Shown piece after piece: positions 13,063-30,169 of a stretch of DNA of 64,000 bases. The translations under genes and the position numbers were made by a program. Below the pieces are notes generated by a model. It saw nothing but the letters and a program-made list of their open reading frames with translations. It did no database searches and was not told the origin of the DNA. Numbering within the stretch: position 1 is the stretch's first letter; every line of letters begins with the position of its first letter. This DNA comes from Terriglobia bacterium (GTDB lineage: Bacteria > Acidobacteriota > Terriglobia > Terriglobales > SCQP01), in NCBI GenBank assembly GCA_021323595.1, contig JAJPKR010000025.1:1-64000 (forward strand). Reading direction: 5' to 3'.

Positions 13063-14832
13063 CTAGCCGACGGTGGCGGATGCAGCGTCCGCCTGCGGGC
13101 CGCGCAGCGACGCGAAGACGCCCTTTTGCCGCCAACTGCGAATGAATAGCGCCGTCGCGACGATGCCCGCCGCGGCGCAACTGGCGGCCGCGAGCCAGTG
13201 GCGGCCGAAGAGATCGGTGGTGGCGGCGACGGCGGCGGTGCAGACCACGATTCCCAGGGCGCAATCGTAAAGATCGCCGTGCAATTCCCGCCGCTGCGCG
13301 TCGCGCTCGGCCGGCGTCAGGGCGTCGGTGACGGGGCGCCACAATCCGGGCGGACGGCAGCGGCGATAGAACTCGCGCAGCACTTCGACGCGTTCGGGAG
13401 GCGTCAGCCAGGTCACCGCCAGGATCACCACCCAGCCGGCGCCGAAGAGCAGCAAGAAGCCCTGCCAAAACGGCCGCTGCGAGAAGCCGAGCGGAAACCA
13501 AATCAGGTAGCCGAGCGGCAGACCGGCGACCAGGCCGGCAATCTCGCCCCAGATGTTCAAGCGCCACCAGAAGAAACGCAGCCAGGCCAGCGGCAGGATG
13601 AAGGCGATCATCACGTTGTTGATGAACAAGAACCAGGCCATCATGCCGTTGACGAGGAAGTAGCCGATGAGCAGGGCCAAGGCGAGCAGCAGGGCGGTGG
13701 CGCCGCGGCTGATCCACAGGTAGTGGCGCTCGCTCGCCTGCGGGCGGAAGAAGCGCTTGTAGACGTCGTTGATCAAATAAGATGCGCCCCAGTTCATCTC
13801 CGTGCTCACCGCGGACTGGTAGGACGCGAGCTCGCCGGCGACCAGCAAGCCGGTGAGGCCGGCGAATCCGAAGCGCTTGACCAGCTCTCCCCATACCAAT
13901 TGGCCGGCCATGCCGGAGCCGCCGAAGACGGCGGCGCCCACCAGGCCGAGGAAGAAGAAGGGGATCACGCGCACGACCAGCGAGAGGAAGGCGTTGAAGA
14001 GCTGGCCAACCTGGGCGTGAAATTCGTTCTTGGCGGCCATGAACTTTTGCGCGGTGAAGCCGCCGCCGCCCGCCGGAGCGGCGGCGAAGAACAGGCCTTG
14101 CAGCACCAGCGCGGCGATCGTGATGCGGTCAAAGGCGCCGCCGGGCGGGGTGGCGCGGAAAAATCCGGCGCCGAAGTGTTGGGCGGCGGCGGCGTAGATC
14201 GCGTGCAGGCCCCCGGCGCCATGAATGGCCACGGGAATGAAAACGGCATTGGCGGCGAGAAACAAGATGAACTGGAAGATTTCCGAATAAACGGCGCCCA
14301 GCAAGCCGCCGAGCAGCGAATAGACGAGCGTGACGCCGGCGGCGAACAGGATGGTTGCGGCGTTCCCCCAGCCGAGGATGGGGCCGATGGATTTGGTGAG
14401 CCAGCCGGTGACGTAAGCCATCAGCACCACCGCCCAGCCGAAGCTGAAGTACAGCGCCGAGATCCAGCGGAAGGCGCCCGCGGCGCGGCCGCCGTAGCGG
14501 ACCTCCACAAATTCCGCGGTGGATACGATTTGCAGCCGGCGCCAGAATTTCGACCAGATCACCGCGACCAGCGGCATCCACAGGATCCAGGGAATCCACC
14601 ACCACCAGTTGCCGAGCAGGCCGTCGCGATAGACGAGCATGGTGAAGGCCGAGGCCGAGCCCGAGGAGGTGAACGTGGCGACGGCGGAGAAGCCGATCGC
14701 CCACCAGGCGAGCGAACGGCCGCCCATGAAGTAGCCCTCGATGCCGCGGCTGGCGCGGCGGGTGAAGACCAGGCCGATCAGGAGCGCAATCAGCGAATAC
14801 GCGCCGAGAATCCACCAGTCGAGCGGCTGCAT
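13063..14832 (-). CDS. Sodium:solute symporter family protein (SSS)
   Basis: The product has 589 residues from ATG 14830-14832 (MQPLDWWILGAYSLIALLIG), with 12 or more hydrophobic segments and the SSS-family signature region (GYFMGGRSLAWWAIGFSAVATFTSSGSA). The substrate is unknown; SSS carriers take up sugars, amino acids, nucleosides or organic acids with sodium. The C-terminal soluble part (LREFYRRCRPPGLWRPVTDAL) is followed by a further pair of hydrophobic segments. The ORF track adds 91 arginine-rich upstream residues that belong to the neighbouring gene's opposite frames. It is the third gene of the operon TonB receptor, M14-like peptidase, symporter, 20 bp after the peptidase. Confidence 0.88.
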   Translation of the reverse strand: MQPLDWWILGAYSLIALLIGLVFTRRASRGIEGYFMGGRSLAWWAIGFSAVATFTSSGSASAFTMLVYRDGLLGNWWWWIPWILWMPLVAVIWSKFWRRLQIVSTAEFVEVRYGGRAAGAFRWISALYFSFGWAVVLMAYVTGWLTKSIGPILGWGNAATILFAAGVTLVYSLLGGLLGAVYSEIFQFILFLAANAVFIPVAIHGAGGLHAIYAAAAQHFGAGFFRATPPGGAFDRITIAALVLQGLFFAAAPAGGGGFTAQKFMAAKNEFHAQVGQLFNAFLSLVVRVIPFFFLGLVGAAVFGGSGMAGQLVWGELVKRFGFAGLTGLLVAGELASYQSAVSTEMNWGASYLINDVYKRFFRPQASERHYLWISRGATALLLALALLIGYFLVNGMMAWFLFINNVMIAFILPLAWLRFFWWRLNIWGEIAGLVAGLPLGYLIWFPLGFSQRPFWQGFLLLFGAGWVVILAVTWLTPPERVEVLREFYRRCRPPGLWRPVTDALTPAERDAQRRELHGDLYDCALGIVVCTAAVAATTDLFGRHWLAAASCAAAGIVATALFIRSWRQKGVFASLRGPQADAASATVG

Positions 14833-14852
14833 GGGGGCGATGCGGCGGGCGG

Positions 14853-16004
14853 CTAGGCCAGGGCTTCCGCGAGCGCGCAAGCGGCGGCGTAGGCGCTCTC
14901 GAGCGATTCGCGCCGCGTCAAGGCGCGCATGCCGGGGATGGGCTCGTATTCGGCGCCGGCCGTCGCCAGCATGCCGCCGTTGAATTCGACGATCAGGCAG
15001 CGCGCGCCGATTTGATGGAACCAGGCGTCTTCGTAATACTTCTCCGGCGGCTTGGGATAGCCGCGCGGCGGCCGTGGATTGAAGAGCAGCCGGCGCGCGC
15101 GCCATTCGGCGTGGATCGCGGCGGCGAGCGCGCTCTCATCGGCCTGGTACGACGCCGAGGGAATGGTGGGCAGAAAGACCTCGGTCGGGAACATGAAATT
15201 GTGGAAGTCGAGAACGCAGTAGGGGCGGACGGCGGCGAGGATTTGCTTGAGCGCGCGCGTCTCGATCCCATGGGTATCGTCCCAATCGAACCACATGTCC
15301 AGACCTTGATCGGTCATGCTCGATCCGATCACGTGGCCGGTCGCCTCCCATTGCGCGATCTGATCGGGCGTGAAGCGCATCGGCGCCTGCTTGACATAGG
15401 TGCCGTAGAAGAACTTGCAGGGTTCATTGCCCTCGGCGTAGAAGCGGGCCGCGTTAGCGTCGTTCCAGTCGGGAATCCACGTGCCGTGCCAGGAATCGGG
15501 AAAATGCAGGGCGAAGCGTTCGGCGCCGCCGGGGTTGATCAAGGGAAAGACAAGGAGCGTCAGGCGCGCGAGCAGGCGCGCGGCGTCAAGCGGGCGGCCG
15601 AAGGGCCGGGCGCCGCCCAGCAGCGCGTCGAGAAACGCGAGCACACCGCGCGGGCCGCTCGGCTCGCAGCCGTGCATGCCGGAAAGAATCGCTACCGGAC
15701 GCGGTCCCGAGCCGAGGCGGAAGCCATAGACCGGCAGGCCCGAGGCGGAGCGGGCGAGCTCGCGAAAGTCGGCGGCGGCGCAATGCCGGTCGGCGAGCCG
15801 GCGCAGCCGGTCGAGGCCGTCGCCGGCATTGAAGAACCAGTAGTCGCGTTCTTCCGCCGACCAGGCGAGGTAGTCGCCGCGGGTGGAGCGCTCGCCGCCG
15901 GCTGCGCCTCCTCCGCGCCCCGCGTCCTCCGGCATCCTGCCGCCGGCCAGCCCGAGGGCCGCGGGCGCGGCCGCCAGGGCGCCCAAGAAGTCGCGCCGTT
16001 CCAT
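14853..16004 (-). CDS. Exported M14-like zinc carboxypeptidase
   Basis: A 383-residue protein with a twin-arginine-type leader (MERRDFLGALAAAPAALGLAGG). The M14 metal site is visible: HGCE at residues 111-114 supplies His and Glu, and LDFHNF places the third ligand at His268. IVEFNGG gives a candidate catalytic Glu near residue 340, and the motif INPGGAERF fits the substrate-binding Asn/Arg region. M14 enzymes remove C-terminal residues from peptides, and some act on peptidoglycan amides or deacylate small molecules. The gene starts 4 bp after the TonB receptor stop and is followed after 20 bp by a symporter, suggesting processing of an imported compound in the periplasm. Confidence 0.83.
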   Translation of the reverse strand: MERRDFLGALAAAPAALGLAGGRMPEDAGRGGGAAGGERSTRGDYLAWSAEERDYWFFNAGDGLDRLRRLADRHCAAADFRELARSASGLPVYGFRLGSGPRPVAILSGMHGCEPSGPRGVLAFLDALLGGARPFGRPLDAARLLARLTLLVFPLINPGGAERFALHFPDSWHGTWIPDWNDANAARFYAEGNEPCKFFYGTYVKQAPMRFTPDQIAQWEATGHVIGSSMTDQGLDMWFDWDDTHGIETRALKQILAAVRPYCVLDFHNFMFPTEVFLPTIPSASYQADESALAAAIHAEWRARRLLFNPRPPRGYPKPPEKYYEDAWFHQIGARCLIVEFNGGMLATAGAEYEPIPGMRALTRRESLESAYAAACALAEALA

Positions 16005-16008
16005 GCCG

Positions 16009-19000
16009 CTAGAAAGAATACGTCAGCGCCATTTGAATGACCCGCGGCGTCCAAAGGTTCTCCGCGCCCAGCGCGTAGGTCACGCCCGTGGGCGCGCCGA
16101 TGAGGGAGCCGAACGAGGGCCCATCGCTCAAGCGATTGTCGGGAAAGCGCGTGCCGGTGTGCCAGCTCGAGAGGAAATTGAAGACATCGAGCCGGTATTG
16201 GAGATTTTGCCGCTCGGTGATCGCGAAATTTTTCAGGAAGCTCAGATTTGCCTGCCGCGTGCCGGGCGCGGTCAGGATGTTGCGTCCGGAGTTGCCGTAG
16301 CTGCCGGTGGCCGGCGTGGCGAACGCCGAGGTGTTGAACCATTGCTCGACGGTGGGCGAACCGCTGGCCGGCGCGCCGTTGACCTGCGCCCGCAGGCGAT
16401 CGCCGAAGGGGTCGCCGGTCAGGTCCACGGCGCGGCCGCCGCCGCGGCTGCAGCAATAAACGCTGAACGGCAGGCCGCTGGCGAAGGTGAGCACTCCGCT
16501 CGTCTGCCAGCCGCCCAGCACCCAATTCGCGGGACCGAGCGACCAGCGCCGGCCTTTGCCCACGGGCAGGTCGTAGAGATAGCTCAAGACCAAGCGCTGG
16601 GATTGGTTGAAGTCGGCGGGACCGTAGTTGGCGTGGAGATCGGCGGTGTTCTGGATGAAGTTGTTGCTGCCGCTGAAAGCCGCGATCTCCGACATTTCAT
16701 CCAAGGCGCGCGACCAAGTGTAGTTCGCGAGCAGCGTGAGGCCGTTGTGGAACCGCTGATCGAGGCGGAATTGCAGCGCATTGTAGTTGCCGCTGGCAAT
16801 GTTGGCGTTGGCATAGCTGCCGGCGGCGAAATTGGCGAACGGCACCCGCGTGTCGATCGGCTGGAACGCGGAACCGGTCGCCGGGCAGTTGGCGTACTCG
16901 CCGGTCGCCTGCGAGGCATCCTTCAGACTGTTGCAAATGACCGGCGCGCCGGTGACTGCGCCGGGAATGATATCGGGCGTGCTGGCGAGGTGAGCGTCGT
17001 TGAACTCGTACTGGAACGGTTCATGCATGTCGTGCGAGCCGACGTAACCCAGGTCGAGCAGCAAGTCCGGGGTCAGGGCGTATTGCGAGTCGAGGGTCCA
17101 CTGCTCGGTGTAGGGATTGCGGTTGCCCGGCCACTCCGTTTGGATGCCGAACTGCCAGGCGGGCGGGAAACTGGAAAACACGTTGACGGGCGCCAGCCAA
17201 AGGGTTTTCAGGGCCAGCGGCGAGACCGACTCGTTGCCCGAGGCCACGGGATAGTTGGGGTTGGGCGAGAGAGTCGCAAGCGCGTTGTCGTCGTAGTTCG
17301 TGCCGTCGTAGAAGCGCATGTAAACGCTGCTGAACATGCCCCAGCCGCCGCGCACGACCCAGCGGTTCATGGAGATCGGGCGCCAAGCGAAACCCAGGCG
17401 CGGCTGGAAGTTGTTCTTGACTCCGGGGACCAGCTTGTTGCTGACGCAGCATTGCAAGTAGGTGGCGGCGGCGGCGCCCGCGCTCGAGCTCCAGGTGTTG
17501 ACGAACGTCTTGTCCGCCCAGATCAGCCCGCCGCCTTGCGTCGCGAAGTTGAGGACGCTGCCGCTGTTGTCGAGGGAATGCAGGGTAGAGGGGATTTCGT
17601 AGCGGAGCCCCAAATTCAGCGTGAGCCGCGGCGAGACGTGGTAGTCGTCTTGGAAATAGAAGCCCCACCCCGTACCGCGCACGTTGTACAGGTCGGAGGC
17701 CAGCGGCGCCGGCGCGCCGATCGCGAGCGGATCGCCAAGCAGCAGATCGGCGAAAGCGTTGCCGGCCGTCGGCCCCAGTTTGCCTTGGGCGCCGGCGATC
17801 GGATCGGAGGCGGTATAGGCGCCGGTGAAGCGCAGGGTGCCGTTGACGCTGAAGCCATCGGCATCCCAAAGCTGGATGCGGCGGATATCGGCGCCGAAGG
17901 CCAGGCTGTGGGCGCCATGGATGTAATTGAAGTTCGCGACCTCTTGGTAAATGTTGTCCTTCTGCGAGTAGCCGTTGTTGCCGTTGCCCGGCCCGCTGTA
18001 ACCGTCGCCCATCGCCAAAGTGGGGATGCCGAAGAAGGCGGGAACGGGGTTGGTGTTGGCAAAGCCCAACTGCGCGGAGAGGTTCGGCCCGAAGGCGGTC
18101 ATCGCGCCCTCGTGGAAGTTCTCGCGGGTGTAGCCGGCGCGCAGCGCCATGATGAAATTCGGCGTGAACGTGCGCTGCCACTCCAAGCCCAGCAGGTAGG
18201 AACGATCGAAAACCTCCGAGCTTGACGCCGGCAGCGGCGAGATCGATGGGGCCGTGATCCGTCCGGCATTGAACGTGAACGACAGTTGATCCTTGCCGCT
18301 CAACTGATGATCGAGACGGCCCGTCCAGACGTCGGTGTTGGTGGGCGTCGTCGTGGTGGCGACGAAATTGCCGCAGGGCATGGTGCAGGTGATGTTCGGC
18401 TGGGGAAAGTAGTTGAGCAGCTTCTGGGCGATCGGATCGATGCTCGAAATCTTGTTGCCGGCAAACGCCGCGCGCCCGGAGGGGTCGCTGCCGGTCGCGG
18501 GCTGGCTGCCGGTGGTCGAGGGATCGTAGATGGGATACGGCCAGTCGGAAAAATCGCCCTGGCGTTCGGCCGCCGTGGGCACCTGATAGGTCGCGGCGCC
18601 GGAGGTGCTGCGAATGCGGCCGCCTTCATAGCTGGCGAAGAAGAACGTTCGATTGCGGCCGGAATAGAGGCCGAAGGGCAGGGTGAGCGGCCCGCCGAGG
18701 CTGCCGCCGAACTGATTCTGCCGAAACGGCGACTTGGTGGGGATGGTGGTTCCCTTGGTGGCGTTGAGATAGGCGTTGATGGGATTTTGCGGCTGGAAGG
18801 CGCTGTTCTCGAGGAAGTCGTAGACATCGCCATGGAGGGTGTTGGAGCCGGATTTGAGCGCCACATCGACCTGCGCGGAGCCGAAGCCGCCGGAAGCGGG
18901 ATACACGCCGTTTTCGAGCTTGAACTCCTGAATGGTGTCGGCGGGTGGAATATTGATCGGCTTGCTGAAGAAGAAGTCGGTGTCGGAGATGCCGTCGATG

Positions 19001-19605
19001 ACATAGCTGATCGAGGCCGGGCGGGCGCCATCCACGCTCATCTCGCGGAATTGGCTGTTGAGCCCGTGCTGATCGAAGACCGTGGTCTGGATGCCGCCGG
19101 CCGGCGTGGTCACGCCGGCTTGGATTTGGATTAGGTTGGTGAAGTCGCGGCCGCTGAGGGGCAGCGCAGCGATTTCGCGGGCGGTCACCACTTGCCCCAC
19201 GGTGGCGTTGTCGGTTTGCACCATTTGCGCGTCGGCGGCCACGGTGACCTCTTGCTCGACTTGGCTGACCCGCAGCGTGAAATCCTGCCGCAAAGTGGCC
19301 TCGACTTGCAGCACCAGGCTGCTTGAGGTCACGGTCTGAAATCCCTTGCGGGCGGCGCTGACGCGATAGGCGCCGGGAATCAAGTTCACGAATTCGTAGT
19401 CGCCGCTCGCGGTGGTGAGGAAGCGCGCGGGGATGCCGGTGCCGAGATTGGTCGCCGTCACGACCACGCCCGGCAAGGGCGCGCCGGAGGCGTCCTGCAC
19501 GTGCCCGAGAATAGTGCCCCGCGCGTTTTGCGCTGCCGCCGCCATCGCCAGCGCCAAAACCACGAGAGCCGCCAGAAACCGCTTGCCGATGCTGCCGCCG
19601 ATCAT
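16009..19605 (-). CDS. TonB-dependent receptor with N-terminal carboxypeptidase-regulatory domain
   Basis: This 1198-residue protein has a signal peptide (LAALVVLALAMAAAAQ), then a carboxypeptidase-regulatory-like domain at about residues 28-115 (GTILGHVQDASGAPLPGVVVTATN), a plug domain (VGQVVTAREIAALPLSGRDF) and a large outer-membrane beta-barrel ending in the aromatic terminus LTYSF. This Oar-like architecture is greatly expanded in Acidobacteriota and usually imports oligosaccharides or other bulky ligands using TonB energy. It heads a three-gene minus-strand operon and is divergent from the IclR regulator. The 199-bp gap between them holds two matching dyads that could control both directions. 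Confidence 0.93.
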   Translation of the reverse strand: MIGGSIGKRFLAALVVLALAMAAAAQNARGTILGHVQDASGAPLPGVVVTATNLGTGIPARFLTTASGDYEFVNLIPGAYRVSAARKGFQTVTSSSLVLQVEATLRQDFTLRVSQVEQEVTVAADAQMVQTDNATVGQVVTAREIAALPLSGRDFTNLIQIQAGVTTPAGGIQTTVFDQHGLNSQFREMSVDGARPASISYVIDGISDTDFFFSKPINIPPADTIQEFKLENGVYPASGGFGSAQVDVALKSGSNTLHGDVYDFLENSAFQPQNPINAYLNATKGTTIPTKSPFRQNQFGGSLGGPLTLPFGLYSGRNRTFFFASYEGGRIRSTSGAATYQVPTAAERQGDFSDWPYPIYDPSTTGSQPATGSDPSGRAAFAGNKISSIDPIAQKLLNYFPQPNITCTMPCGNFVATTTTPTNTDVWTGRLDHQLSGKDQLSFTFNAGRITAPSISPLPASSSEVFDRSYLLGLEWQRTFTPNFIMALRAGYTRENFHEGAMTAFGPNLSAQLGFANTNPVPAFFGIPTLAMGDGYSGPGNGNNGYSQKDNIYQEVANFNYIHGAHSLAFGADIRRIQLWDADGFSVNGTLRFTGAYTASDPIAGAQGKLGPTAGNAFADLLLGDPLAIGAPAPLASDLYNVRGTGWGFYFQDDYHVSPRLTLNLGLRYEIPSTLHSLDNSGSVLNFATQGGGLIWADKTFVNTWSSSAGAAAATYLQCCVSNKLVPGVKNNFQPRLGFAWRPISMNRWVVRGGWGMFSSVYMRFYDGTNYDDNALATLSPNPNYPVASGNESVSPLALKTLWLAPVNVFSSFPPAWQFGIQTEWPGNRNPYTEQWTLDSQYALTPDLLLDLGYVGSHDMHEPFQYEFNDAHLASTPDIIPGAVTGAPVICNSLKDASQATGEYANCPATGSAFQPIDTRVPFANFAAGSYANANIASGNYNALQFRLDQRFHNGLTLLANYTWSRALDEMSEIAAFSGSNNFIQNTADLHANYGPADFNQSQRLVLSYLYDLPVGKGRRWSLGPANWVLGGWQTSGVLTFASGLPFSVYCCSRGGGRAVDLTGDPFGDRLRAQVNGAPASGSPTVEQWFNTSAFATPATGSYGNSGRNILTAPGTRQANLSFLKNFAITERQNLQYRLDVFNFLSSWHTGTRFPDNRLSDGPSFGSLIGAPTGVTYALGAENLWTPRVIQMALTYSF

Positions 19606-19629: not shown

Positions 19630-19646
19630 GTTCTAGCCATCAGAAC
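19630..19646. promoter_or_regulatory. Operator candidate 1: GTTCT-N7-AGAAC dyad
   Basis: The 17-bp dyad GTTCT-AGCCATC-AGAAC lies 25 bp upstream of the TonB receptor start. The same arms and spacer length recur 101 bp away, next to the IclR gene. IclR-family dimers bind short inverted repeats like this, so it is a plausible repressor or activator site for the minus-strand operon. Confidence 0.5.
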
Positions 19647-19730
19647 ACCGGGAAATTTAGCTCGACCGGCGCTCATTGTTTTCGGGGGCGGGACCCAAGT
19701 CAACCGGGAAGTGCAGGGTTGTTTCAAAAT

Positions 19731-19747
19731 GTTCTGCGGAACAGAAC
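19731..19747. promoter_or_regulatory. Operator candidate 2: GTTCT-N7-AGAAC dyad
   Basis: The second 17-bp dyad is GTTCT-GCGGAAC-AGAAC, whose inner bases extend the symmetry (TGTTC-TGCG-GAACA). It lies 57 bp upstream of the chosen IclR start. Finding the same five-base arms at the same spacing twice in 199 bp is unlikely by chance and points to a shared regulator of the divergent operons. Confidence 0.55.
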
Positions 19748-19804
19748 GCCTGGCGCGCGCGCCGGGATTTGCTGTTTACAGGCGGGCGGCGATTGGAGAG
19801 ACTG

Positions 19805-20617
19805 GTGCGCGAGGCGAGGAAGGTGCCTGCCAACAACTACATCGTGGCGATCGAGCGGGCGTGGCGCGTGCTCGAGGCGTTTCAGGGGCAAAGCGACGTG
19901 AGCTTGCGCGATCTCACGCGGCGCGCCGGCATGGTCAAGAGTTCCGTCTACCGGATCTTGTTCACGCTGGAACGGCTGGGCTACGTCGAGCGCGGGACGA
20001 GCGGGTACTCGGTGTCCCCGAAGCTGACGCTGCTCGCCGGGGACGGCGGACGGCCGCTGCGCGGGCTCGGGGACATGGCGCTGCCGTTCATGCGCGAAGT
20101 GCTGCGACGATTTCAGGAGACGGTGAACCTGGGCGTGCTGGAGGAGGGCGAGGTGGTCTATCTGCGGGTGCTGGAAAGCCCGCATCCGTTCCGGCTGGCG
20201 GCCCACGCCGGCATGCGCAGCCCGGTGTATTCGAGCGCGCTGGGGAAGTCGCTGCTGGCGCATCGCACGCGCGCCGAGGTGGAAGAAGTTCTGCGGCTGA
20301 AGCCGCCCCGCGCCCTGACGCCGCGCACGGTGCGCAACAAGTTCGATTTCTTCCGGGAGCTGGACCGGGTGCGCCTGCGCGGCTATGCGGTGGACAACGA
20401 AGAAGATGCGCGCGGCGCCCGCTGCGTCGGGGTGCCGGTGATGGGCGCCGACGGCAAGGTGGCGGCCGCGCTCAGCATCTCCGGCCCCTCGAGCCGGGTG
20501 GCGGCCAGCCGCGACCGGGAGTTCGCGGAAGCCTTGCGCCAGGCGGCGCGGCAGATCGAAACGCTGCTGGGCTACGCGCCCCGCCCGGCGGCGGCGAGCG
20601 GCGGAGGCGGACGATGA
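19805..20617 (+). CDS. IclR-family transcriptional regulator
   Basis: The 270-residue protein has an N-terminal winged helix-turn-helix (SLRDLTRRAGMVKSSVYRILFTLERLGYV) and a C-terminal effector-binding domain (YSSALGKSLLAHRT...GVPVMGADGKVAAALSISGP). I start it at GTG 19805 because GGAGAG lies 4 nt upstream; the ORF track begins 43 residues earlier, across the dyad region. IclR proteins sense small metabolites of catabolic pathways and bind short palindromes. Its stop overlaps the aminotransferase ATG (ATGA), so it is the first gene of the plus-strand catabolic operon and probably controls it and the divergent receptor operon. Confidence 0.9.
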   Translation: MREARKVPANNYIVAIERAWRVLEAFQGQSDVSLRDLTRRAGMVKSSVYRILFTLERLGYVERGTSGYSVSPKLTLLAGDGGRPLRGLGDMALPFMREVLRRFQETVNLGVLEEGEVVYLRVLESPHPFRLAAHAGMRSPVYSSALGKSLLAHRTRAEVEEVLRLKPPRALTPRTVRNKFDFFRELDRVRLRGYAVDNEEDARGARCVGVPVMGADGKVAAALSISGPSSRVAASRDREFAEALRQAARQIETLLGYAPRPAAASGGGGR

Positions 20618-21855
20618 GCCTCGCCCTGCTGGGCGGCGCTCCGGTGCGCACGCGTCCGTTCCCGGCCTGGCCCGTGTACGGCCAATTGGAAGAGCAAGCT
20701 CTCGCCGACGTGCTGCATAGCGGCTTTTGGGGCGGCTACAACGATTCGATTCAGAAATTGGAGCAGCGCTTCGCGGCGCTGCATCAGGCGCCGCACGCCA
20801 TCTCGTGCGCGAACGGCACGGTGGCGCTGGAAGTCGTGCTGCGCGCCTGCGGCATCGGCTGCGGCGACGAAGTTATCGTGCCGGCGTTCACTTTCGTGGC
20901 CACGGCGACGGCGGTGCTGCTGTGTCATGCGCAGCCGGTCTTCGCCGACATCGAGCGCGATTCGCTGAACCTGGATCCGGCGGCGGTGGCCGCCGCCATC
21001 ACGCCGCGCACGCGCGCGATCATCGCCGTGCACTTCGGCGGCCGGCCCGCCGACATGGACTCGCTGGCGCCGCTGGCGCGCCAGCGCGGCCTGACGCTGA
21101 TCGAAGACGCGGCGCATGCGCACGGCGCGCGCTGGCGCGAGCGGCCGGTGGGCAACTTCGGCGAGGCGGGAACGTTCAGCTTCCAGGCATTCAAACTGAT
21201 GACCGCAGGCGAAGGCGGCATGATGACCACCAATTCGGCGCCGCTCGCGGAACGGATGTGGAGCTATTGCAATCAAGGGCGCCGCCTCCAGGGAGGGTGG
21301 TTCGAGCATTTCACGCTGGGTTCGAATTACCGCATCACCGGCTTTCAGGCGGCGCTGCTTTGCGCGCAACTGGAGCGGCTGGAGGAGCAGAACCGGCGGC
21401 GGCAGGCGAACGCCGCGCACCTGCGCCGGCGGCTGGCGGGGTTCACGGGCTTGCGGCTCGCGCCCGAGGACCCGCGCGTGGGCAACGACCCGCACTATCT
21501 GGTCACGCTGCGCTACGATGCGGGGGCCTTCGCGGGGCTGCCGCGCGATCGCTTCATCGAAGCCGTGCGCGCGGAAGGGGTGCCGCTGGTGGCGACCTAT
21601 CCCCGCCCGCTGTATCACAACCCGGTCTTTCACAACGGCGCCGGCCGGTGTCACTGCACCGCCCGGGTGCCGCCGCAGGATTACCGCCATTTGTCGCTGC
21701 CCGAGTCCGAGCGCGCTTGCCGCGACGGCATCTGGATCGAGCACCATCTCCTGCTCGGCGAGAGCGGCGACGTCGACGATATGATTGCGGCCTTCGCCAA
21801 GGTTCAAGAGAATGCGGCCTCGCTCGCGCGGGCTGGCGTCGGTTCGGGGGCGTGA
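20614..21855 (+). CDS. DegT/DnrJ/EryC1-family PLP-dependent aminotransferase
   Basis: The product has 413 residues. The PLP-binding lysine is Lys194 in FQAFKLMTAGEGG, with Asp in LIEDAAHAHGA holding the pyridine nitrogen and GTVALEVVL in the phosphate-binding region. Members transaminate keto-sugars, keto-inositols or related cyclic ketones, and the LMTAGEGG context resembles the aminohydroxybenzoate-synthase/inosose-aminotransferase branch. In a catabolic operon it could work in reverse, removing an amino group from an aminosugar or aminocyclitol, with the Gfo/Idh/MocA enzyme five frames downstream as a redox partner. ATGA overlaps at its start and the tight end indicate coupled translation. 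Confidence 0.85.
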   Translation: MSLALLGGAPVRTRPFPAWPVYGQLEEQALADVLHSGFWGGYNDSIQKLEQRFAALHQAPHAISCANGTVALEVVLRACGIGCGDEVIVPAFTFVATATAVLLCHAQPVFADIERDSLNLDPAAVAAAITPRTRAIIAVHFGGRPADMDSLAPLARQRGLTLIEDAAHAHGARWRERPVGNFGEAGTFSFQAFKLMTAGEGGMMTTNSAPLAERMWSYCNQGRRLQGGWFEHFTLGSNYRITGFQAALLCAQLERLEEQNRRRQANAAHLRRRLAGFTGLRLAPEDPRVGNDPHYLVTLRYDAGAFAGLPRDRFIEAVRAEGVPLVATYPRPLYHNPVFHNGAGRCHCTARVPPQDYRHLSLPESERACRDGIWIEHHLLLGESGDVDDMIAAFAKVQENAASLARAGVGSGA

Positions 21856-24800
21856 GCGCTTGCGCCTGACCGTCGCCATGGCCGCGCTGGCGGCGATGCT
21901 GGGCGCGGCGGCGCCGCCCGGCGGCGCCGGGCTCGCGCCGTGGCATTTCCAGACGGATTTTCGCGCCGGCCTGCCCGCGTGGATGAGCTTCCCGCTGGCG
22001 CAGGACGTGGGCTACGATCCGACGATTTACACCACCGCGCTGTCGCCGCAGCCGATGCTGGTGCGCGATGTCGAGGCGCACGGAGAGAAGCGATTGCGGG
22101 TGGGCGTCATTCGTCCTTTGCGGTTCGTGGCCGGGACCCGCACCGTGCTCCGCCTGGCGTACCGGCTCGAGGCCTGCGGCGCCGCCTCGCTCAGCCTGGT
22201 GTTAGGGGCGGAGGATGGCGCTCGCTATGCGGCCTCGCTGCCGGCGACGCCCGGCTGGCACGAGGCGACGATCCTCGGCAGCCGGCTGCACCTGCCCGCG
22301 TCCGGCGCACGGATCCAGGCGCTGGTGATCGAGGCGCGCATTCAGCAGGCCGTAACGGGATCGCATCAGCGCTTGTTCCTGCGCTCGCTTTCCGTGGACG
22401 CGCAGCGGCCGCCAAGGCTCGCGGTGCTGGCGCCGGCGCTGGCGGGCAGCAACGGCGAGGCAAGACGGGTAGCCCAATCAACGCTCACGCCCGGCGCTGC
22501 GCTTTTCGTCCAGGTCGCGGGGCGCGCCGGGGTGCAGGCGCGTCTTTTCGACCCCGCAGGGCATCCGGCCGAGGCCTTTTCCTGGCCGTCAGCCGGCGGT
22601 GCGATGACGCTGCCGGCGGCGGCGGGTCCGGGGCTGTGGCGCGTGCGGGTGCAACGGGGGGCGGCGCGGGCCGAGTTCGCCGTTTTGGTCCTGCCCGCAA
22701 GCATGCCGCCCCATCCACGGCTGCTGCTGGACGCGACGCAGTGGCGGGCCTTGCGCGATTCGCGCGCCCTGTGCGCCGAAGTGCAGGCGGCCGCGCAGGC
22801 CGCTGCTGCGCGCGTACGCTGGAATCCGGACGCGGGCGACAATATTGCCCTGCTGTCCAAGGTCTCCGTCTTGGCGGGCCTGCCGGGATACTTCACGCTG
22901 CTTGAAAACTACAGTCACGCGATCGCGTTCAACGCCCTCGATTACCGGTTGACCGGCGACCGGGAAGCCTTGGCGGCGGCGCGGCGCGGCTTGCTAACGA
23001 TCGCGCGCTGGCGGACTTGGACGCCGCCGTGGTTTCTCGCCCACGGCTTGCACACGTATTACGAGGTGGGCGTGTTCTCGCAGCGCGTGGCCTTCGGCTA
23101 CGATCTGATCGCGAATCAGCTCACGCCCGCCGAGCGCGCCACGATCGCCGAGGCGTTTTGGCGCCAGGCCGTGCAGCCGGCGGTGCAAGAGTATTTCCTC
23201 GACAACCGCATGCCGATCGCCGCCAGCAATCACATGGCCCACGCGGTCGGGGGAGCGCTGGCGTTGGCGGTCGCGACCGCGGGCGACGACCCGGTCCTTT
23301 GGCGTCAAGAGGCTCCGGCGGTCGCGGAGTTGCTGGTCGCCTACCGGCGCCTGTTGCGGGGATTGTTTCCGGGCGACGGCAGCGAGGCCGAGCCGGCCGG
23401 CTATGAGGAATTCGCGATGATCGGCATGTCCTGGGGCGCGGCGGCGCTCGACGCGCTCGGAATTCACCCACCCGGCCTGGAGGCGATGGCGCAGGCGTTT
23501 TGGTGGCCGCGCTATGCCGAGTACGGGCACGCGCAGGGGCAACTGCATCTGCTCGACACCGGCGACTTCGGCGGCGCGCTGGGGGCGCTCTCGGGATTCG
23601 CCTGGCCGGCCGCTCATGAAGGCAGCGCCGCGCTGCAAGCCTGGTACGATCTGGCTCGTTCCACGCGCGACCTGGCGCGCACGCCGCCGCCGGTGGCGGA
23701 TACGGGCCGCGCCTTGGAAGCGGCGCCGGACCTATTGGATTTGGCGCGCCTGGGCGCGCCCGCGCGCGGCGTTGCGGCGCAGCCCGCGGCGCCGCTCGCG
23801 CGCATTTTTCCCGGACGGGGCAGCGCCGTGTTGCGCAGCGGATGGGAGCCCGGAGCCACCGTCGTTTCGCTGCGCGCCGGGCCGTGGTTCAATCATGGGC
23901 ACGCCGACGAGGGCAGCTTTCAAATCGCCACCGGCGGGGAAGCGGTCGTCGCCGAGGCGGGCTACGCGGATTATTACAAGGAACCGCTCTATGCCAGCTA
24001 CTTCACGCAAGCGGCCGGCCATAATACCGTCTTGATCGATGGCGATCCATTCAGCGAAGCTCCGATTGCCGGCCGGTATTGGCGCGCGTGGAGCGATCAT
24101 CCGGCCATCACGACTCACCTCTTCGCTCCGGGCATGGACTACCTGGCCGCCGACCTGGCGCCGGCCTATGGCGGGCGGCTGACGGCCTACGTGCGCGACT
24201 ACTTGTTTTTGTCCCCCGGGCTTCTCGTGGTGCGCGATCGCCTGCGAGCGCCGGGCCCGCATGCCTACACGTGGCTGCTGCATGCGCCCGCGGGCGATCG
24301 CGTGACCGCCGGCGCCGCCCGCGCGCGGATTCTGGGCGAGCACGCGCAGGCGACCGCGGTCGCCGCCGGCGGCGGCGTCTGGCGCATGCAGGCGGCGCCC
24401 GTGCCGGAGGGGGACTTCGCCGATTTCGACGCTGCGATTCCACCGCGCGTCACGCTCTCGCTCACCTCCGCGGCGGCGTCATCACGGCAGTTTTTTGTCG
24501 GCATCGAGATGGGCGAGGCGGGCGCCGCGACCGACCTCACGGCGGTTCGCACGCCCGCCGGGGAAGGCGTGCGCAGCGCGCGCCGGCAGGCGATCGTGCT
24601 CAGCCGCACCGCCGGCGGCATGCTCGAAGCCGCGGGCTGCAAGACCGACGGCGACCTTCTGGCCGTGAGCGGCGCGCGGGTCCTGGCGGGCGGCGCGACG
24701 GAAGTGGACGCTGCCGGCGGTTGGCGCGCCCGCGTGGATCATCCGATCATGCTGGCGGCCGAGCCGGTCGCCGCTGGCGCGCATTTTTGGCTGGTGGCGG

Positions 24801-24940
24801 CGCAACCGTCGCATCTAGTGCTGAACTTCGCCCGGGCCGCGCGGCGGGTGCGGCTCGACAAGCAGGGGAGCGCGGGCGCCGGGCGCGCCATCCGCTTGGG
24901 CTTGCCGGCCGGGGAGCACCGTCTTGATGTCGTTTACTGA
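21812..24940 (+). CDS. Heparinase II/III-family protein, probable polysaccharide lyase
   Basis: This large protein (1042 residues from ATG 21812) has a possible signal peptide (LTVAMAALAAMLGAAAPP). An N-terminal beta-sandwich-like part reaches about residue 300. An alpha/alpha toroid follows (LLDATQWRALRDSRALCAEV...SNHMAHAVGGAL). The C-terminal part is a heparinase II/III beta-sandwich with WFNHGHADEGSF and AGHNTVLIDG. Family members cleave uronic-acid-containing polysaccharides such as heparin, alginate or exopolysaccharides by beta-elimination. Alternative starts are TTG 21860 and ATG 21878; the upstream part overlaps the aminotransferase end. It overlaps the next gene by 14 bp. Confidence 0.82.
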   Translation: MRPRSRGLASVRGRERLRLTVAMAALAAMLGAAAPPGGAGLAPWHFQTDFRAGLPAWMSFPLAQDVGYDPTIYTTALSPQPMLVRDVEAHGEKRLRVGVIRPLRFVAGTRTVLRLAYRLEACGAASLSLVLGAEDGARYAASLPATPGWHEATILGSRLHLPASGARIQALVIEARIQQAVTGSHQRLFLRSLSVDAQRPPRLAVLAPALAGSNGEARRVAQSTLTPGAALFVQVAGRAGVQARLFDPAGHPAEAFSWPSAGGAMTLPAAAGPGLWRVRVQRGAARAEFAVLVLPASMPPHPRLLLDATQWRALRDSRALCAEVQAAAQAAAARVRWNPDAGDNIALLSKVSVLAGLPGYFTLLENYSHAIAFNALDYRLTGDREALAAARRGLLTIARWRTWTPPWFLAHGLHTYYEVGVFSQRVAFGYDLIANQLTPAERATIAEAFWRQAVQPAVQEYFLDNRMPIAASNHMAHAVGGALALAVATAGDDPVLWRQEAPAVAELLVAYRRLLRGLFPGDGSEAEPAGYEEFAMIGMSWGAAALDALGIHPPGLEAMAQAFWWPRYAEYGHAQGQLHLLDTGDFGGALGALSGFAWPAAHEGSAALQAWYDLARSTRDLARTPPPVADTGRALEAAPDLLDLARLGAPARGVAAQPAAPLARIFPGRGSAVLRSGWEPGATVVSLRAGPWFNHGHADEGSFQIATGGEAVVAEAGYADYYKEPLYASYFTQAAGHNTVLIDGDPFSEAPIAGRYWRAWSDHPAITTHLFAPGMDYLAADLAPAYGGRLTAYVRDYLFLSPGLLVVRDRLRAPGPHAYTWLLHAPAGDRVTAGAARARILGEHAQATAVAAGGGVWRMQAAPVPEGDFADFDAAIPPRVTLSLTSAAASSRQFFVGIEMGEAGAATDLTAVRTPAGEGVRSARRQAIVLSRTAGGMLEAAGCKTDGDLLAVSGARVLAGGATEVDAAGGWRARVDHPIMLAAEPVAAGAHFWLVAAQPSHLVLNFARAARRVRLDKQGSAGAGRAIRLGLPAGEHRLDVVY

Positions 24941-25673
24941 CTGGCGGGCGACCCTCGCCGCGCTCGAATTGTTCGACGCCAACGTGCGCGTGGGCGCCTC
25001 CGGCCCGCACGGGGCGCTAACGCTCGGCGCTGACGCTCTCGAGCAAGAGCTCGCCAGCTTCGCCATCACCGGCGCGCTGGCGGCACACTGGGCCGGCCTC
25101 GAGTACGACGCCGCCCACGGCAACGGCGTGCTCGCCGAGCTGCGGCGCGACTGGCTGACGCCGGTCTTCGCGGCCACGCCGGAAACGCTGGCGCAACTGG
25201 AGCGGCTGCGGCCGCGCGCGGCGCAGCTCGCGTTCGGGGCGCTGCGCCATAACTTTTCCAGCGCGCGCTGGTGCTGCGGCGAGCTGTGCGAATACCTCCA
25301 GTCGCGGCGGGTGGTGACCGTGATCTCGCGCGACGACCTGGACTGGGAGGGGCTGGCGCGGCTGCTGGACGATTTTCCCGGCTTGCCGGTCGTGTTCGTG
25401 AATGCGGGCTATCGCGGCGACCGCTATCTGTGGCCGCTGCTGCGCCGCCATTCCCATTTGTATTTCGATACCTCCGGGTACTTGGCCCACCGGCAGCTCG
25501 AAGCCTTCGTCGAACGCATGGGCGCGGAGCAGGCGGTCTTCGGCAGCCGTTTGCCGCTCTTCACCCCGGCCGCGGCGCTGGCGACGCTGCTGAGCGCGCG
25601 CATGAGCGACGCGCAGCGGCGCGCGGTGGCCGGCGGCAATCTGCGGCGCCTGCTGGCGGAGGTGCAAGCATGA
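24927..25673 (+). CDS. Degenerate amidohydrolase-like protein
   Basis: The 248-residue protein has the layout of the amidohydrolase-2/COG3618-type TIM barrel: VVFVNAGYRGDRYLWPLL, then LYFDTSGYLAHRQLEAFVERMGAEQAVFGSRLPLF at the end. The metal-binding HxH expected near the N terminus is replaced by FDANVRVG, and the usual late GSDxP is GSRLP. Metal-dependent hydrolysis is therefore unlikely in the ordinary way. It directly precedes an intact relative, with an ATGA overlap, and may have become a non-catalytic partner or use another chemistry. The ORF track starts one codon earlier at TTG; I use ATG 24927. Confidence 0.75.
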   Translation: MSFTDWRATLAALELFDANVRVGASGPHGALTLGADALEQELASFAITGALAAHWAGLEYDAAHGNGVLAELRRDWLTPVFAATPETLAQLERLRPRAAQLAFGALRHNFSSARWCCGELCEYLQSRRVVTVISRDDLDWEGLARLLDDFPGLPVVFVNAGYRGDRYLWPLLRRHSHLYFDTSGYLAHRQLEAFVERMGAEQAVFGSRLPLFTPAAALATLLSARMSDAQRRAVAGGNLRRLLAEVQA

Positions 25674-26455
25674 CCCCCGCCCCCTTTCGCGCGCCGGTGC
25701 CGATTGTCGATTGCCACGGCCACTTGGGCGTGCATCCGGATTTCCCCGCCTACAAGACCGAGCCCGAAGAGATGCTCGAGGTCATGGACGCGCTCAACAT
25801 CGAGCGCCTGGCGATCACTTCCACGCTCGCGTGCTATTCCGACGCGCCGCGCGGCAACGCCGAAGTGGCGGCATGCTTGGCGCGGCACGGGGATCGGTTC
25901 CTGGGGTATGTGACGGTGAATCCGCATCCGCGCGGCGAAGCGGTCCGCGAACTGGAGCGCTGGGCGGACTGGCACCGCCCGCCGCTGATCAAAATGCATC
26001 CGGATTTGCATCAGGCGCCCGTGGAAGCGGCGGGGTACCGGCCGGTGTGGGAGTACGCCGACGCCAACGGCGGCATCGTGCTCGTGCATACCTGGGACTC
26101 CGACGGCAACTGCGGGCCGCTGCGGCTGCTGCCGATCGCGCGGGCCTATCCCGGCGCGCGCATCATCCTGGGGCATAGCGGCGTGACCTGGCGCGGCTAC
26201 GAGCAGGCGATGGTCGTCGCCCGGCAAGCGCCGAACACCTATCTCGACCTGAGCGGTTCGCAGGCGCATCGCGGCATCCTCGAGCGTTGCGTCGCGGAGG
26301 TGGGCGCGGAGCGGATTCTTTTCGGCTCCGACATGCCCTATCTCGAAGCCGCCGCGCCGCTCGGCCGGGTGCTGGCGGCGCAATTGCCGGAGGCGGCGAA
26401 GACGCTGATCCTGCGCGGCAACTTTTGCCGCTTGCTCGGCGAGGCGGCGGCATGA
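25670..26455 (+). CDS. Amidohydrolase (COG2159/COG3618-type)
   Basis: A 261-residue metal-dependent hydrolase with an intact metal site: VDCHGHLG near residue 14, PPLIKMHPDLHQ (Lys/His), VLVHTWD, IILGHSG and LFGSDMPYLEAA with the catalytic Asp. Members hydrolyse sugar lactones or decarboxylate aromatic acids. The presence of a sugar-dehydrogenase-type gene next door and an FAH-family gene nearby makes a lactonase in an oxidative sugar pathway reasonable, but this is inference. It follows the degenerate relative and precedes the dehydrogenase, with ATGA overlaps at both ends. Confidence 0.85.
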   Translation: MTPAPFRAPVPIVDCHGHLGVHPDFPAYKTEPEEMLEVMDALNIERLAITSTLACYSDAPRGNAEVAACLARHGDRFLGYVTVNPHPRGEAVRELERWADWHRPPLIKMHPDLHQAPVEAAGYRPVWEYADANGGIVLVHTWDSDGNCGPLRLLPIARAYPGARIILGHSGVTWRGYEQAMVVARQAPNTYLDLSGSQAHRGILERCVAEVGAERILFGSDMPYLEAAAPLGRVLAAQLPEAAKTLILRGNFCRLLGEAAA

Positions 26456-27504
26456 GCGGCGCTGGGGAACGGGTGCGGCTGGGCATTATCGGCCTGGGCA
26501 TCATGGGCGAAGCGTACGCGCGCATCTACAGCCAGCATCCGCTGGCGGCGGTGGTCGCGGTCTGCTCGCGCCGCCGCGAGCGCGTGGAAGAGATACAGGC
26601 GCGGTACGCGGTGCCGCACGGCGCGACCGATTACCGCGCCCTGCTCGACGGCCCCGATCTCGACGCCGTCGTCGTGGCCACGCCGGATCGCGAGCATTTC
26701 GGCCCCGCCTTGGCGGCGCTGCAATCGAAACGGCACGTGCTGATCGAAAAACCGATGACCACGTCGGTGGCCGAGGCGGACGAGCTGTTGCGCGCGGCGC
26801 GCACCGCCGGCCGTCTCATCCAGGTCGCCTTCAATCATCGCTGGCTCTCGGCCTATTACCAGGCCAAACAGCTGATCGCGGCCGGCGAGATCGGCGCTCC
26901 GCTGGCCGGCTATGCCCGCAAGAACGACACGATCTTCGTGCCGACCGAATACATCCGCTGGGCCGGTGAAACCACCCCTGCCTGGTTCCTCGGCTCGCAT
27001 GACATCGACCTGATGCGCTGGTTCCTCGACGCCGAGCCGCTCGAGGCGCGCGCCTGGGGACGCCGGGAAGTGCTGGCCGGACGGAGCATCGCCACCTACG
27101 ATGTCATTCAGGCGCAGGTCAAGTTTTCCTCCGGCGCGTTCGTCACCTTCGAATCGGCGTGGGTCTATCCGCGGAGCTTTCCTTCGATCGTGGATTCGTT
27201 CGTCGAACTGATCGGAACGGCCGGGCACGTGCATCTCGACCGTAAGTGCGAATCGCTCGAGGTGAGCACGGTGGAAAAATTCTCCTACCCCAAGGGCTTT
27301 CTCCTGGCGGAGATCTTCGGCCGGCTGCGCGGCGCCTTTCCGCAGTGCTTGGAGGACTTCTTGTTCGCGATTCGCGAAAACCGCCCGCCCGCGGTCACCG
27401 GCGAAGACGGCCGGCAGGTGACGGCCACGCTGGAAGCCATTCATCGTTCGCTGGAGACCGGCCGCAGCGAGCCGGTCGCGCCGCCGGTTCCGGCGGCGAG
27501 CTGA
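26452..27504 (+). CDS. Gfo/Idh/MocA-family NAD(P)-dependent oxidoreductase
   Basis: The 350-residue protein has an N-terminal Rossmann fold (RLGIIGLGIMGEAYARIY), the EKPMTTSVAEAD signature and a C-terminal alpha/beta domain carrying GSHDIDLMRWF, whose His is the usual catalytic acid/base. Members oxidise or reduce sugars, inositols or amino-sugar derivatives. Linked to the aminotransferase upstream, it could interconvert the hydroxyl and keto forms of the same substrate. It overlaps its upstream neighbour by four bases, and the next gene begins 3 bp after its stop. Confidence 0.9.
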   Translation: MSGAGERVRLGIIGLGIMGEAYARIYSQHPLAAVVAVCSRRRERVEEIQARYAVPHGATDYRALLDGPDLDAVVVATPDREHFGPALAALQSKRHVLIEKPMTTSVAEADELLRAARTAGRLIQVAFNHRWLSAYYQAKQLIAAGEIGAPLAGYARKNDTIFVPTEYIRWAGETTPAWFLGSHDIDLMRWFLDAEPLEARAWGRREVLAGRSIATYDVIQAQVKFSSGAFVTFESAWVYPRSFPSIVDSFVELIGTAGHVHLDRKCESLEVSTVEKFSYPKGFLLAEIFGRLRGAFPQCLEDFLFAIRENRPPAVTGEDGRQVTATLEAIHRSLETGRSEPVAPPVPAAS

Positions 27505-27507
27505 TTC

Positions 27508-29187
27508 ATGCGGGCGGCGGACTGGGTCGCGCTGTGCGCCTATTTCGCGGCCATGCTCGCCGTCGGCGTGCGTTACTCGCGGCAGATGCGATCGGCGGAG
27601 ATGTATTTCGCCGGCGGCCAGCAACTGCCTTGGTGGCTGGGCGGCACGTCGTTCCTGATGTCCTATGTCAGCGCCTTGTCCATCATCGTGTACGCGGCGC
27701 TGGGCTACCGCTACGGGCTGGTGGCGCTGACGCTGTACTGGACCACGATCCCCGCCACCGTGCTCACCACCTGGCTGCTCGCGGCGCGCTGGCGCCGAGC
27801 GGGCATTATTACCCCCACCGAATTTCTCGAGACGCGCTTTTCGGCGAGCGTGCGGCAGGTCTTCGTATGGTCGGGCATTCCCCTGAAGCTCATCGACGAA
27901 GGCCTGAAGATCGTCGCGATCGGGCTGTTTCTGGCCGCCGGATTGCATATCTCGCCGCTGCTCGCGATGGCCGCGGTAGGGCTGGTCGTGATCCTATACA
28001 CCGTGCTCGGCGGCTTATGGGCCGTCGTCGTGACCGACTTCATTCAGTTCACGCTGGTCACCTGCGCGGTGGTGCTGCTGCTGCCGCTGCTCTGGCATCG
28101 CCTGGGAGGGCAGGCCTGGCGGGCGCTGCCGGCGGATTTGCTGCGCCCGACGCACGCTCCCTACGGGTGGAGCTATGTCGGGGCGTTCTTGGTGCTGAGC
28201 ACGCTGGGTCTGGCCGGCAACTGGTCGCTGATTCAGAAGTTCTACTCGGCGCGCGACGACCGGGAAGCGCGCGCCACGGGTTGGATGGCGTGCGCGCTCT
28301 TTTTCCTTTTGCCGCCGTTTTGGATCCTGACCGGGCTGCTGGCGCGCGTCGCCTTCCGCGCCGCCGATGCGCAGATGATTTACGCCCAGGTCGCGGCGGC
28401 GTTGCTGCCGCCCGGGATCTTCGGGATGGTGCTGGCGGCGCTGCTGGCGGCAACCATGTCCGTGCTCGCGTCGGGTTATAACGTGATGGCGGCGGTGCTG
28501 ACGGTGGATGTTTATCGGCGCTTGATGCGGCCGCTGGCCGGCGAGCGGGAGCTGGTCTGGATGGGGCGCTGGCTCACGGCGGCGGTGGGTATCATCGTGC
28601 TCGCGATCGCGCTGGCCGTGACGTATTTTCATTGGACGATCTTCGATACCATGGTCGCCGCCTTCGGCTTCTTTTTGCCGCCGACGGTGTTGCCCGTGCT
28701 CGCCGGACTGTTGAGCCGGCGGCTCTCGGCAGCGGGGGCTCTGGCCGGCTTCGGCGTGGGAATCGCGGCCGGCGCGGGATTCCTCTTCTATCAGTGGCGG
28801 TTTTTGCCGCGCGGCAGCGCCGGCTTTCAGGCGCTGAGCATCGTGGTGCCGGCGGCGCTGACGGTGCTGGTGCTGGCCTTCGCGGCGGTGTTCTTCCCGG
28901 CGCGGCGCGAGGCGGCGGCGCGCGCGAATGAGTTCTTCGCGCGCCTCGGCCGGCCGGCATCCCAGGCGCCCGGCGCCGGCGGCATCAGTCCGGCGCCGAT
29001 GGTGGGGACGATCCTTGCCGCGATGGGCGTGGTGCTGGCGCTGCTCGGTTGCGGGGCGATGCCCGGCGCGGCGAACCCGCTCACCCTGGGCGTCGGCCTC
29101 TTGTTTTTGGCGATCGGCCTGGCGATCGCCGGTTTCAGCCGGCGTCATCGCGCGGAGGGCGCGCGGAGCGCACCGCATGGCGCTTGA
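27508..29187 (+). CDS. Sodium:solute symporter family protein (SSS), second copy
   Basis: A 559-residue carrier with about 13 hydrophobic helices and the SSS signature around MYFAGGQQLPWWLGGTSFLMSYVSALS. It differs clearly from the symporter at 13063, which belongs to the divergent operon. Its position among degradation enzymes suggests that it carries a breakdown product of the operon's substrate. The start is 3 bp past the dehydrogenase stop, and its end overlaps the kinase start by 11 bp. Confidence 0.9.
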   Translation: MRAADWVALCAYFAAMLAVGVRYSRQMRSAEMYFAGGQQLPWWLGGTSFLMSYVSALSIIVYAALGYRYGLVALTLYWTTIPATVLTTWLLAARWRRAGIITPTEFLETRFSASVRQVFVWSGIPLKLIDEGLKIVAIGLFLAAGLHISPLLAMAAVGLVVILYTVLGGLWAVVVTDFIQFTLVTCAVVLLLPLLWHRLGGQAWRALPADLLRPTHAPYGWSYVGAFLVLSTLGLAGNWSLIQKFYSARDDREARATGWMACALFFLLPPFWILTGLLARVAFRAADAQMIYAQVAAALLPPGIFGMVLAALLAATMSVLASGYNVMAAVLTVDVYRRLMRPLAGERELVWMGRWLTAAVGIIVLAIALAVTYFHWTIFDTMVAAFGFFLPPTVLPVLAGLLSRRLSAAGALAGFGVGIAAGAGFLFYQWRFLPRGSAGFQALSIVVPAALTVLVLAFAAVFFPARREAAARANEFFARLGRPASQAPGAGGISPAPMVGTILAAMGVVLALLGCGAMPGAANPLTLGVGLLFLAIGLAIAGFSRRHRAEGARSAPHGA

Positions 29188-30169
29188 CCGGCGCGAATTA
29201 TTGCTGCTCGTGGACGCCGGCGCCAGCCACACCCGCGCCGTCGTGGCAACCCCGTCGGGGAACGTCTTGGGTCTGGGAGAAGCCGGCGGCGGCAATCCGT
29301 TCGCCAGCGGCGGGCGCGCGGCGGGAGCGCACCTGTTGCGCGCGCTGCGCCGCGCCTTGGCGGATGCGCGCCGACCCCCCTCCTCGATCTCGCTTGCCGC
29401 CGTGGGGAGCGCCGGCGTCGGCTGTGACGGAACGGGGAGAAGAAGGACGGAGCGGCTGCTCCGGCGACTCTTGCGAGGGGCGAGGTTGCTGGTCGAGGCC
29501 GATGTGTCGGCGGCGTTGCGCGCCGCCCTCGCCGGAGCCCCGGGGGCGGTAGTCGTCGCCGGCACGGGGGCGATCGTACTCGGCCGGACGGCGACGGGAC
29601 GATGGGCCACCGCCGGCGGCTGGGGCTGGCTCTTTGGAGACGAAGGCAGCGGGCAATGGCTCGGGCGGCAAGCCATCGCGGCGGCGGCCCGGGCCACGGA
29701 TGGAAGCGGCCCGGCGACGCGCCTGGCCGCCCTGTTGTTGCACCAAACCCGCTCCTCATCACTTTGGCATTTGGTCCAGAAGGCCTATCGGGAGCGATGG
29801 ACGCCGGCGGATTACGGCGCGTTGGCGCCGTTGGTCACGCGGGCTGCCGGCGGCGGCGATCACGTCGCGCGCGCGTTGGTTGACATCGCCATGCGCCGCC
29901 TCGCTGCGCAAATCGGCGCCGTCGTCGCGCAATTGCGCTTGCGGCAGCCGGCCGTCTCCTACCAAGGGTCCGTCTTTGCGGCGGGTCGCATCGTGCTCGA
30001 CCCCTTGCGGCGGGCGTTGCGCCGCGGGCAGCTCGTGGCGCCCGCGCTGCCGCCCCTGGCGGGCTCGCTTTGGCTGGCGCTCGAAAGCCGGGGCGTGGCG
30101 CCGGCGGAGGCTGCGGCGAATTTCGTGCGGCAACTGCCACCGGAACTGCGCGGGCTTGGCCATGCCTAG
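29177..30169 (+). CDS. BadF/BadG/BcrA/BcrD-type ATPase, probable amino-sugar kinase
   Basis: The 330-residue ASKHA-fold protein has phosphate-1 motif LLLVDAGASHTRAVV, phosphate-2 motif VVVAGTGAIVLG and a GWGWLFGDEGSG loop typical of N-acetylglucosamine-kinase-like enzymes, as well as GSVFAAGRI near the C terminus. Cytoplasmic phosphorylation of an imported amino sugar or similar sugar is the best guess. The ORF track extends it upstream into the symporter; ATG 29177 is chosen. It overlaps its upstream neighbour by 11 bp and its downstream neighbour by 8 bp. Confidence 0.82.
   Translation: MALDRRELLLLVDAGASHTRAVVATPSGNVLGLGEAGGGNPFASGGRAAGAHLLRALRRALADARRPPSSISLAAVGSAGVGCDGTGRRRTERLLRRLLRGARLLVEADVSAALRAALAGAPGAVVVAGTGAIVLGRTATGRWATAGGWGWLFGDEGSGQWLGRQAIAAAARATDGSGPATRLAALLLHQTRSSSLWHLVQKAYRERWTPADYGALAPLVTRAAGGGDHVARALVDIAMRRLAAQIGAVVAQLRLRQPAVSYQGSVFAAGRIVLDPLRRALRRGQLVAPALPPLAGSLWLALESRGVAPAEAAANFVRQLPPELRGLGHA

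Follow-up and report, generated by a model that had tools for sequence, protein, structure and literature searches.

In the window, by which we mean the whole 64-kb stretch of Terriglobia DNA analysed here, two dyads of the form GTTCT-N7-AGAAC lie between a gene for a TonB-dependent receptor-like protein and a divergently transcribed gene for an IclR-family regulator (Table 1). Both dyads are exact, their starts are 101 bp apart, and their placement between the two genes bears out the original prediction of a twin motif in a divergent control region. The gene content of the surrounding cluster suggests glycan, amino-sugar or cyclitol catabolism and gives only a hint of the substrate itself.

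Table 1. Genes, putative operators and predicted promoters of the cluster in the window
Feature	Position	Strand	Remark
Sodium:solute symporter (SSF)	13063..15003, start approximate	-	next in TonB operon
M14-type zinc carboxypeptidase-like protein	14853..16004	-	next gene in TonB operon
TonB-dependent receptor-like protein, N-terminal CarboxypepD_reg domain	16009..19605	-	leftward operon
Operator site 1 (putative) GTTCTAGCCATCAGAAC	19630..19646	.	predicted 5' leader of TonB-receptor operon
Predicted TonB-operon promoter TTGACT-N17-AACAAT	19675..19703	-	from sequence and equivalents in orthologs
Operator site 2 (putative) GTTCTGCGGAACAGAAC	19731..19747	.	5' of predicted iclR-operon promoter
Predicted iclR-operon promoter TTTACA-N17-GAGACT	19775..19803	+	-10 weak in window
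IclR-family regulator (HTH_IclR + IclR_C), MPANNYI...	19823..20617	+	revised GTG start
DegT/DnrJ/EryC1 aminotransferase	20617..21855, start approximate	+	iclR operon
Heparinase II/III-like protein	21863..24940, start approximate	+	
Amidohydrolase 2 family protein	24924..25673	+	
Amidohydrolase 2 family protein (another)	25661..26455	+	
GFO/IDH/MocA dehydrogenase, IolG-like	26455..27504	+	
Second sodium:solute symporter	27508..29187	+	
BadF/BadG-type kinase, N-acetylglucosamine kinase-like	28928..30169	+	open frame; true start inside
Neutral/alkaline ceramidase-like protein	29634..31385	+	open frame; true start inside

The regulator has the domain architecture of the IclR family, with an N-terminal HTH_IclR domain (PF09339, E = 3.8e-13, 49.4 bits against a cut-off of 22) and a C-terminal IclR_C domain (PF01614, E = 9.5e-47, 159.2 bits against a cut-off of 24), and it is the single IclR_C protein encoded in the whole 3.55-Mb genome. 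An earlier start assignment for iclR (GTG at 19805) was rejected, since the N-termini of the orthologs point to the GTG at 19823. The nearest protein-family similarities are to the BhcR, KdgR and PcaR/PcaU/PobR regulators; all the NCBIfam curated cut-offs compared (BhcR, KdgR, IclR, AllR and PcaR/PcaU/PobR) were missed, and by such a wide margin (for BhcR, 178 against the required 350 bits) that the protein is no ortholog of BhcR, KdgR or PcaR/PcaU/PobR, whose operators also differ from the dyads of the window.

GTTCT-N7-AGAAC occurs twice in the window, against an expectation of 0.02 by chance, and none of 100 shuffles of the window contained two copies. A pattern search of the whole genome, which the original prediction had called for, found the motif only at these two sites, and this answers the concern that it might have many unrelated copies. 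Allowing one mismatch returned background-level matches in the same genome, fewer than the reversed control pattern gave, and added no regulon member. The two sites also have in common, in opposite orientation, a 21-base string, TGTTCTGnnGnnnAGAACGCC, with no further exact copy in the genome; because its extra flanking bases show no conservation in the orthologs, the 21-mer was dropped as evidence.

Conservation of the dyad pair

Thirteen other genomes encode a close relative of the IclR protein (about 49-58% identity). In this small sample, some members of which are closely related, the upstream DNA could be read for 11 orthologs, all from Acidobacteriota and roughly 50-58% identical, and a dyad pair precedes iclR in every one of them (loci L050-L053, L089, L091-L094, L097 and L098), the two sites being 93-111 bp apart, and a divergent TonB-receptor gene is present in 10 of the 11. 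The remaining one, L051 in genome G750, carries degenerate sites only and lacks the divergent receptor gene. The ortholog of G887, in which iclR starts 79 bp from a contig end, was left out of the footprint. In G927 (L095, 57% identity), iclR follows a 31414-type cluster gene instead of standing at the divergon, and this genome has no dyad upstream of iclR and no exact operator anywhere. More distant IclR genes (L016 and L023-L025) also have no such dyad upstream. Across the orthologs the arms of the dyads are nearly invariant and their centre varies, while the surrounding intergenic DNA is barely alignable. Of the 397 genomes searched in this order, only two contain the twin pattern, that of the window and G108, which has an ortholog; none contains the reversed control pattern.

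The window sites were left out when an operator matrix was built from the relatives alone. Among about 64,000 positions of the window, this matrix ranked site 2 first and site 1 second, with scores of 24.7 and 16.7, respectively; the best score in each of 60 simulated windows averaged 8.3 and reached 17.3 at most, so that site 1, taken by itself, falls short of the highest-scoring null match. The third-best match in the window, AATGTGCTCCATAGAAC at 40387-40403 (13.8), has one good arm and falls within the range of random maxima.

The rightward gene order of the window recurs in G108, and a DegT aminotransferase gene also adjoins iclR in G108, L050 and L053. In G108 the cluster continues with genes for a SIS-domain protein and a 31414-type protein, a protein of unknown family. 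In the window, by comparison, the 31414-type gene, a SIS-domain gene and a gene for an FAA hydrolase lie on the minus strand (31414-33892) and face the cluster. Because homologs of the first two are co-directional within the G108 cluster, a rearrangement has occurred.

Operator pairs were also found away from the iclR divergon. First, a second pair in G108 (18313 and 18415 on contig C255, L071:18313-18431) precedes a paralog of the TonB receptor (40% identity) located at this cluster's far end; by eye, a promoter-like element, TTGCAA-N17-CAACAT, is seen 36 bp past its near site. Second, contig C321 of G908, which is not the contig that carries iclR, has a pair (L101:1501-1625) flanked by a TonB paralog on one side and a DegT paralog (62%) on the other, and the 3-kb locus fetched contains no IclR gene. 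The recurrence of the pairs at TonB paralogs indicates that the putative operators define a small regulon, and that the sites track the target genes and not iclR alone. Almost all exact operators in the 14 ortholog-bearing genomes are at this cluster or its paralog; single exact sites on contig C13 of G749 and contig C93 of G108, away from cluster homologs, were treated as chance occurrences. A distant member of the phylum, G719, has a twin GTTCT-N7-AGAAC pair (L073:6339-6450) 5' of a CutC-like gene and 3' of a serine acetyltransferase-like gene. Because no cluster homolog was found in the 13 kb fetched, we treated this pair as unrelated to the regulon; it may belong to another regulator.

Could the dyads simply be chance palindromes, RNA hairpins or terminators? 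Their arms are short, as this reading would have it, and nothing positive was found in its favour; but constant arms around a varying centre in 11 orthologs and two paralogous places, together with the chance expectation given above, leave it a negligible probability, and the footprint already contradicts it.

Motif type and known IclR systems

The combined operator consensus is RTTCTRY-N3-RYAGAAY. In the survey of IclR operators by Suvorova and Gelfand (PMC8222616), group 1 includes a GTT-11-AAC subgroup with the 17-bp palindrome GTTYCRYW3RYGRAAC, which often controls sugar and sugar-acid genes. Within the arms, the consensus departs from this form only at positions 5/13, which read T/A instead of C/G (T is found at arm position 5 in 38 of 40 half-sites). 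The sites resemble the GTT-11-AAC operators in being odd palindromes of 17 bp with GTTY...RAAC ends and in the R-Y steps beside a 3-bp centre, steps that fit at site 2 of the window and partly at site 1; unlike the group-1 form, their centre is not always W. They also resemble that subgroup in their predicted use for autoregulation plus an adjacent operon, and the targets of an IclR protein are usually its own gene and one or two operons next to it (PMC8222616). Group-1 sites are placed beside iclR and the adjacent operon, and most precede the start codon by 20-80 nt; in the window and in 10 orthologs, the sites lie between iclR and the divergent operon, and the centre of site 2 is 53-85 nt upstream of the iclR start codon. 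One difference is that the sites described here are 93-111 bp apart, whereas the tandem sites known so far in the family are mostly separated by 18-22 bp (PMC8222616).

Two individual IclR regulators invite comparison. The operator of GenR from Corynebacterium glutamicum, ATTCC-N7(5)-GGAAT (PMC8222616), has the same arm length and an N7 spacer, but its last arm base is C where T is found here, and its pathway is that of gentisate. Deletion of PheR, an IclR regulator of Sphingobium, raises the expression of catabolic genes and of TonB-dependent receptors (PMC13273656); its pathway, however, is aromatic, its core is GCAACG, the region it protects spans the phnA1 start, and the effect on receptors is seen in the transcriptome only (PMC13273656).

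Does the motif belong to the neighbouring IclR protein at all? A different, unlinked transcription factor might bind the dyads, with the IclR gene a mere neighbour. The G719 pair, which stands beside a CutC-like gene in a region lacking cluster homologs, could be read in this way. But the motif resembles the IclR group-1 type, no other IclR_C protein is encoded in the genome, the exact operators of the 14 ortholog genomes are nearly confined to the cluster or its paralog, and the more distant IclR genes checked have no dyads; we therefore consider a different factor very improbable.

Spacing to the predicted promoters

The promoters were predicted from sequence and picked by eye after the alignment had been viewed. 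Elements of the form TTGACA/T-N17/18 with AAGAAT, TATAAA, TAGAAA, TAGCTA or similar are found in 10 orthologs at the position corresponding to the TonB-operon promoter. Before iclR, all orthologs have a TKTACA or TATACA-N17/18-TATACT-like element, and the -10 hexamer is TATACT or TATAAA in several of them compared with the poor GAGACT of the window. The predicted TonB promoter sits between the two sites, and the predicted iclR promoter is located downstream of site 2. Consequently to these assignments, the centre of site 1 would be about +20 to +31 from the predicted TonB start (about +31 in the window), and that of site 2 in the window about -71 from the predicted start of the iclR operon.

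The distance from the centre of site 2 to the predicted iclR -35 element falls into classes of 15, 25-27 and 36-38 bp, in steps of one helical turn, which would keep the site on the same side of the DNA helix relative to that element. The phasing is seen with all loci (R = 0.89, n = 12) and without near-duplicates (R = 0.87, p about 0.0002, n = 9), and site 1, at 55-59 or 65-66 bp from the predicted TonB -35 element, is likewise phased to it (R = 0.63-0.73, p about 0.01), although these p-values are optimistic, since the sequences tested are those in which the promoters had been picked by eye and the iclR -10 of the window is poor. Site 2 shows no significant phasing to the TonB -35 element in the loci compared.

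The original prediction had allowed for looping, in which an IclR tetramer would join the two sites across about 100 bp and repress both promoters jointly. IclR proteins can form tetramers (PMC8222616), the two operators flank the predicted TonB promoter as in loops of the gal and lac type, and with all 12 loci the distance between the sites shows a weak phasing tendency (R = 0.47, p = 0.06). However, a spacing of 93-111 bp is below the persistence length of DNA, and loops so short need the correct phase, but after removal of near-duplicates the phasing between the sites is not significant (R = 0.30, p = 0.45, n = 9). The ortholog spacings thus lack the helically phased inter-site distance of gal/lac-type loops, and the known tandem sites of the family are mostly much closer together, at the 18-22 bp mentioned above. 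That each site is phased to its own predicted promoter and not to its partner fits separate IclR dimers and speaks against a rigid loop of about 100 bp, which we regard as unlikely.

Discussion

Very probably, the two dyads are operators of the adjacent IclR protein, whose dimers act separately and control both their own operon and the divergent TonB operon. The original prediction that IclR binds both sites and governs both operons is thus strongly supported at the level of sequence, by the footprint, the close match to group 1, the presence of a sole IclR_C protein and the recurrence at TonB paralogs; its looping component is not. Binding by IclR, the two promoters, the ligand and, for each site, the sign of regulation are inferred. 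The switch is of an ordinary kind; its spacing is unusually regular and its motif slightly unusual. It gives an uncharacterised glycan or amino-sugar utilisation cluster a defined, testable regulon, in a phylum, Acidobacteriota, that is absent from the taxonomic table of the main survey of IclR operators (PMC8222616), and the operator matrix should allow further TonB receptors of the regulon to be found in relatives.

How might the two sites act? One IclR dimer would bind each 17-bp site, bringing under its control the catabolic operon (iclR, degT and the genes for the heparinase II/III-like protein, amidohydrolases, Gfo/Idh dehydrogenase, symporter and kinase) and the divergent TonB-receptor operon. 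Site 1, just past the predicted TonB start, has a repressor-like position, and IclR there would most likely block transcription until its affinity is lowered by a ligand, presumably a product of sugar or amino-sugar breakdown that the cluster handles. IclR at site 2 would most likely contact either RNA polymerase or another IclR dimer at the -35 element, and this contact would set the expression of the iclR operon itself. The position of site 2 is either activator-like or that of the upstream member of a tandem autorepression pair.

Activators and dual regulators are both known in the IclR family (PMC8222616). A dual mode, in which IclR would activate the catabolic operon from a face-locked upstream site (at about -50, -60 or -71), repress the TonB operon from a site downstream of its start, and recognise T at position 5 as a specificity of this acidobacterial clade, is a tentative and, taken as a whole, rather doubtful proposal. 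Autorepression at site 2 has a somewhat better chance, though short of an even one; it is a variant of control by separate dimers and compatible with it. Here a second IclR dimer would occupy a degenerate half-site, CTKTACA by eye, that overlaps the predicted iclR -35 element and extends up to GTTCTGTACA in L050 and L091. At the -35 element of L050, L051 and L091, GTTCTGTACA or ATTCTGTACA matches one operator half plus the centre, a candidate third box, and the implied centre distances (about 19, 29-31 and 40-42 bp) are similar to published tandem spacings of two, three and four turns in this family; but the window, L089, L092 and L098 have a poor half-site. Whether IclR activates or represses its own operon could be tested directly through the quantised spacing of site 2. 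In the paralogous divergon of G908, which stood outside the phasing test, the distances to the two -35 elements are 25 bp on the side that corresponds to iclR and 56 bp on that of TonB, both in agreement with the orthologs.
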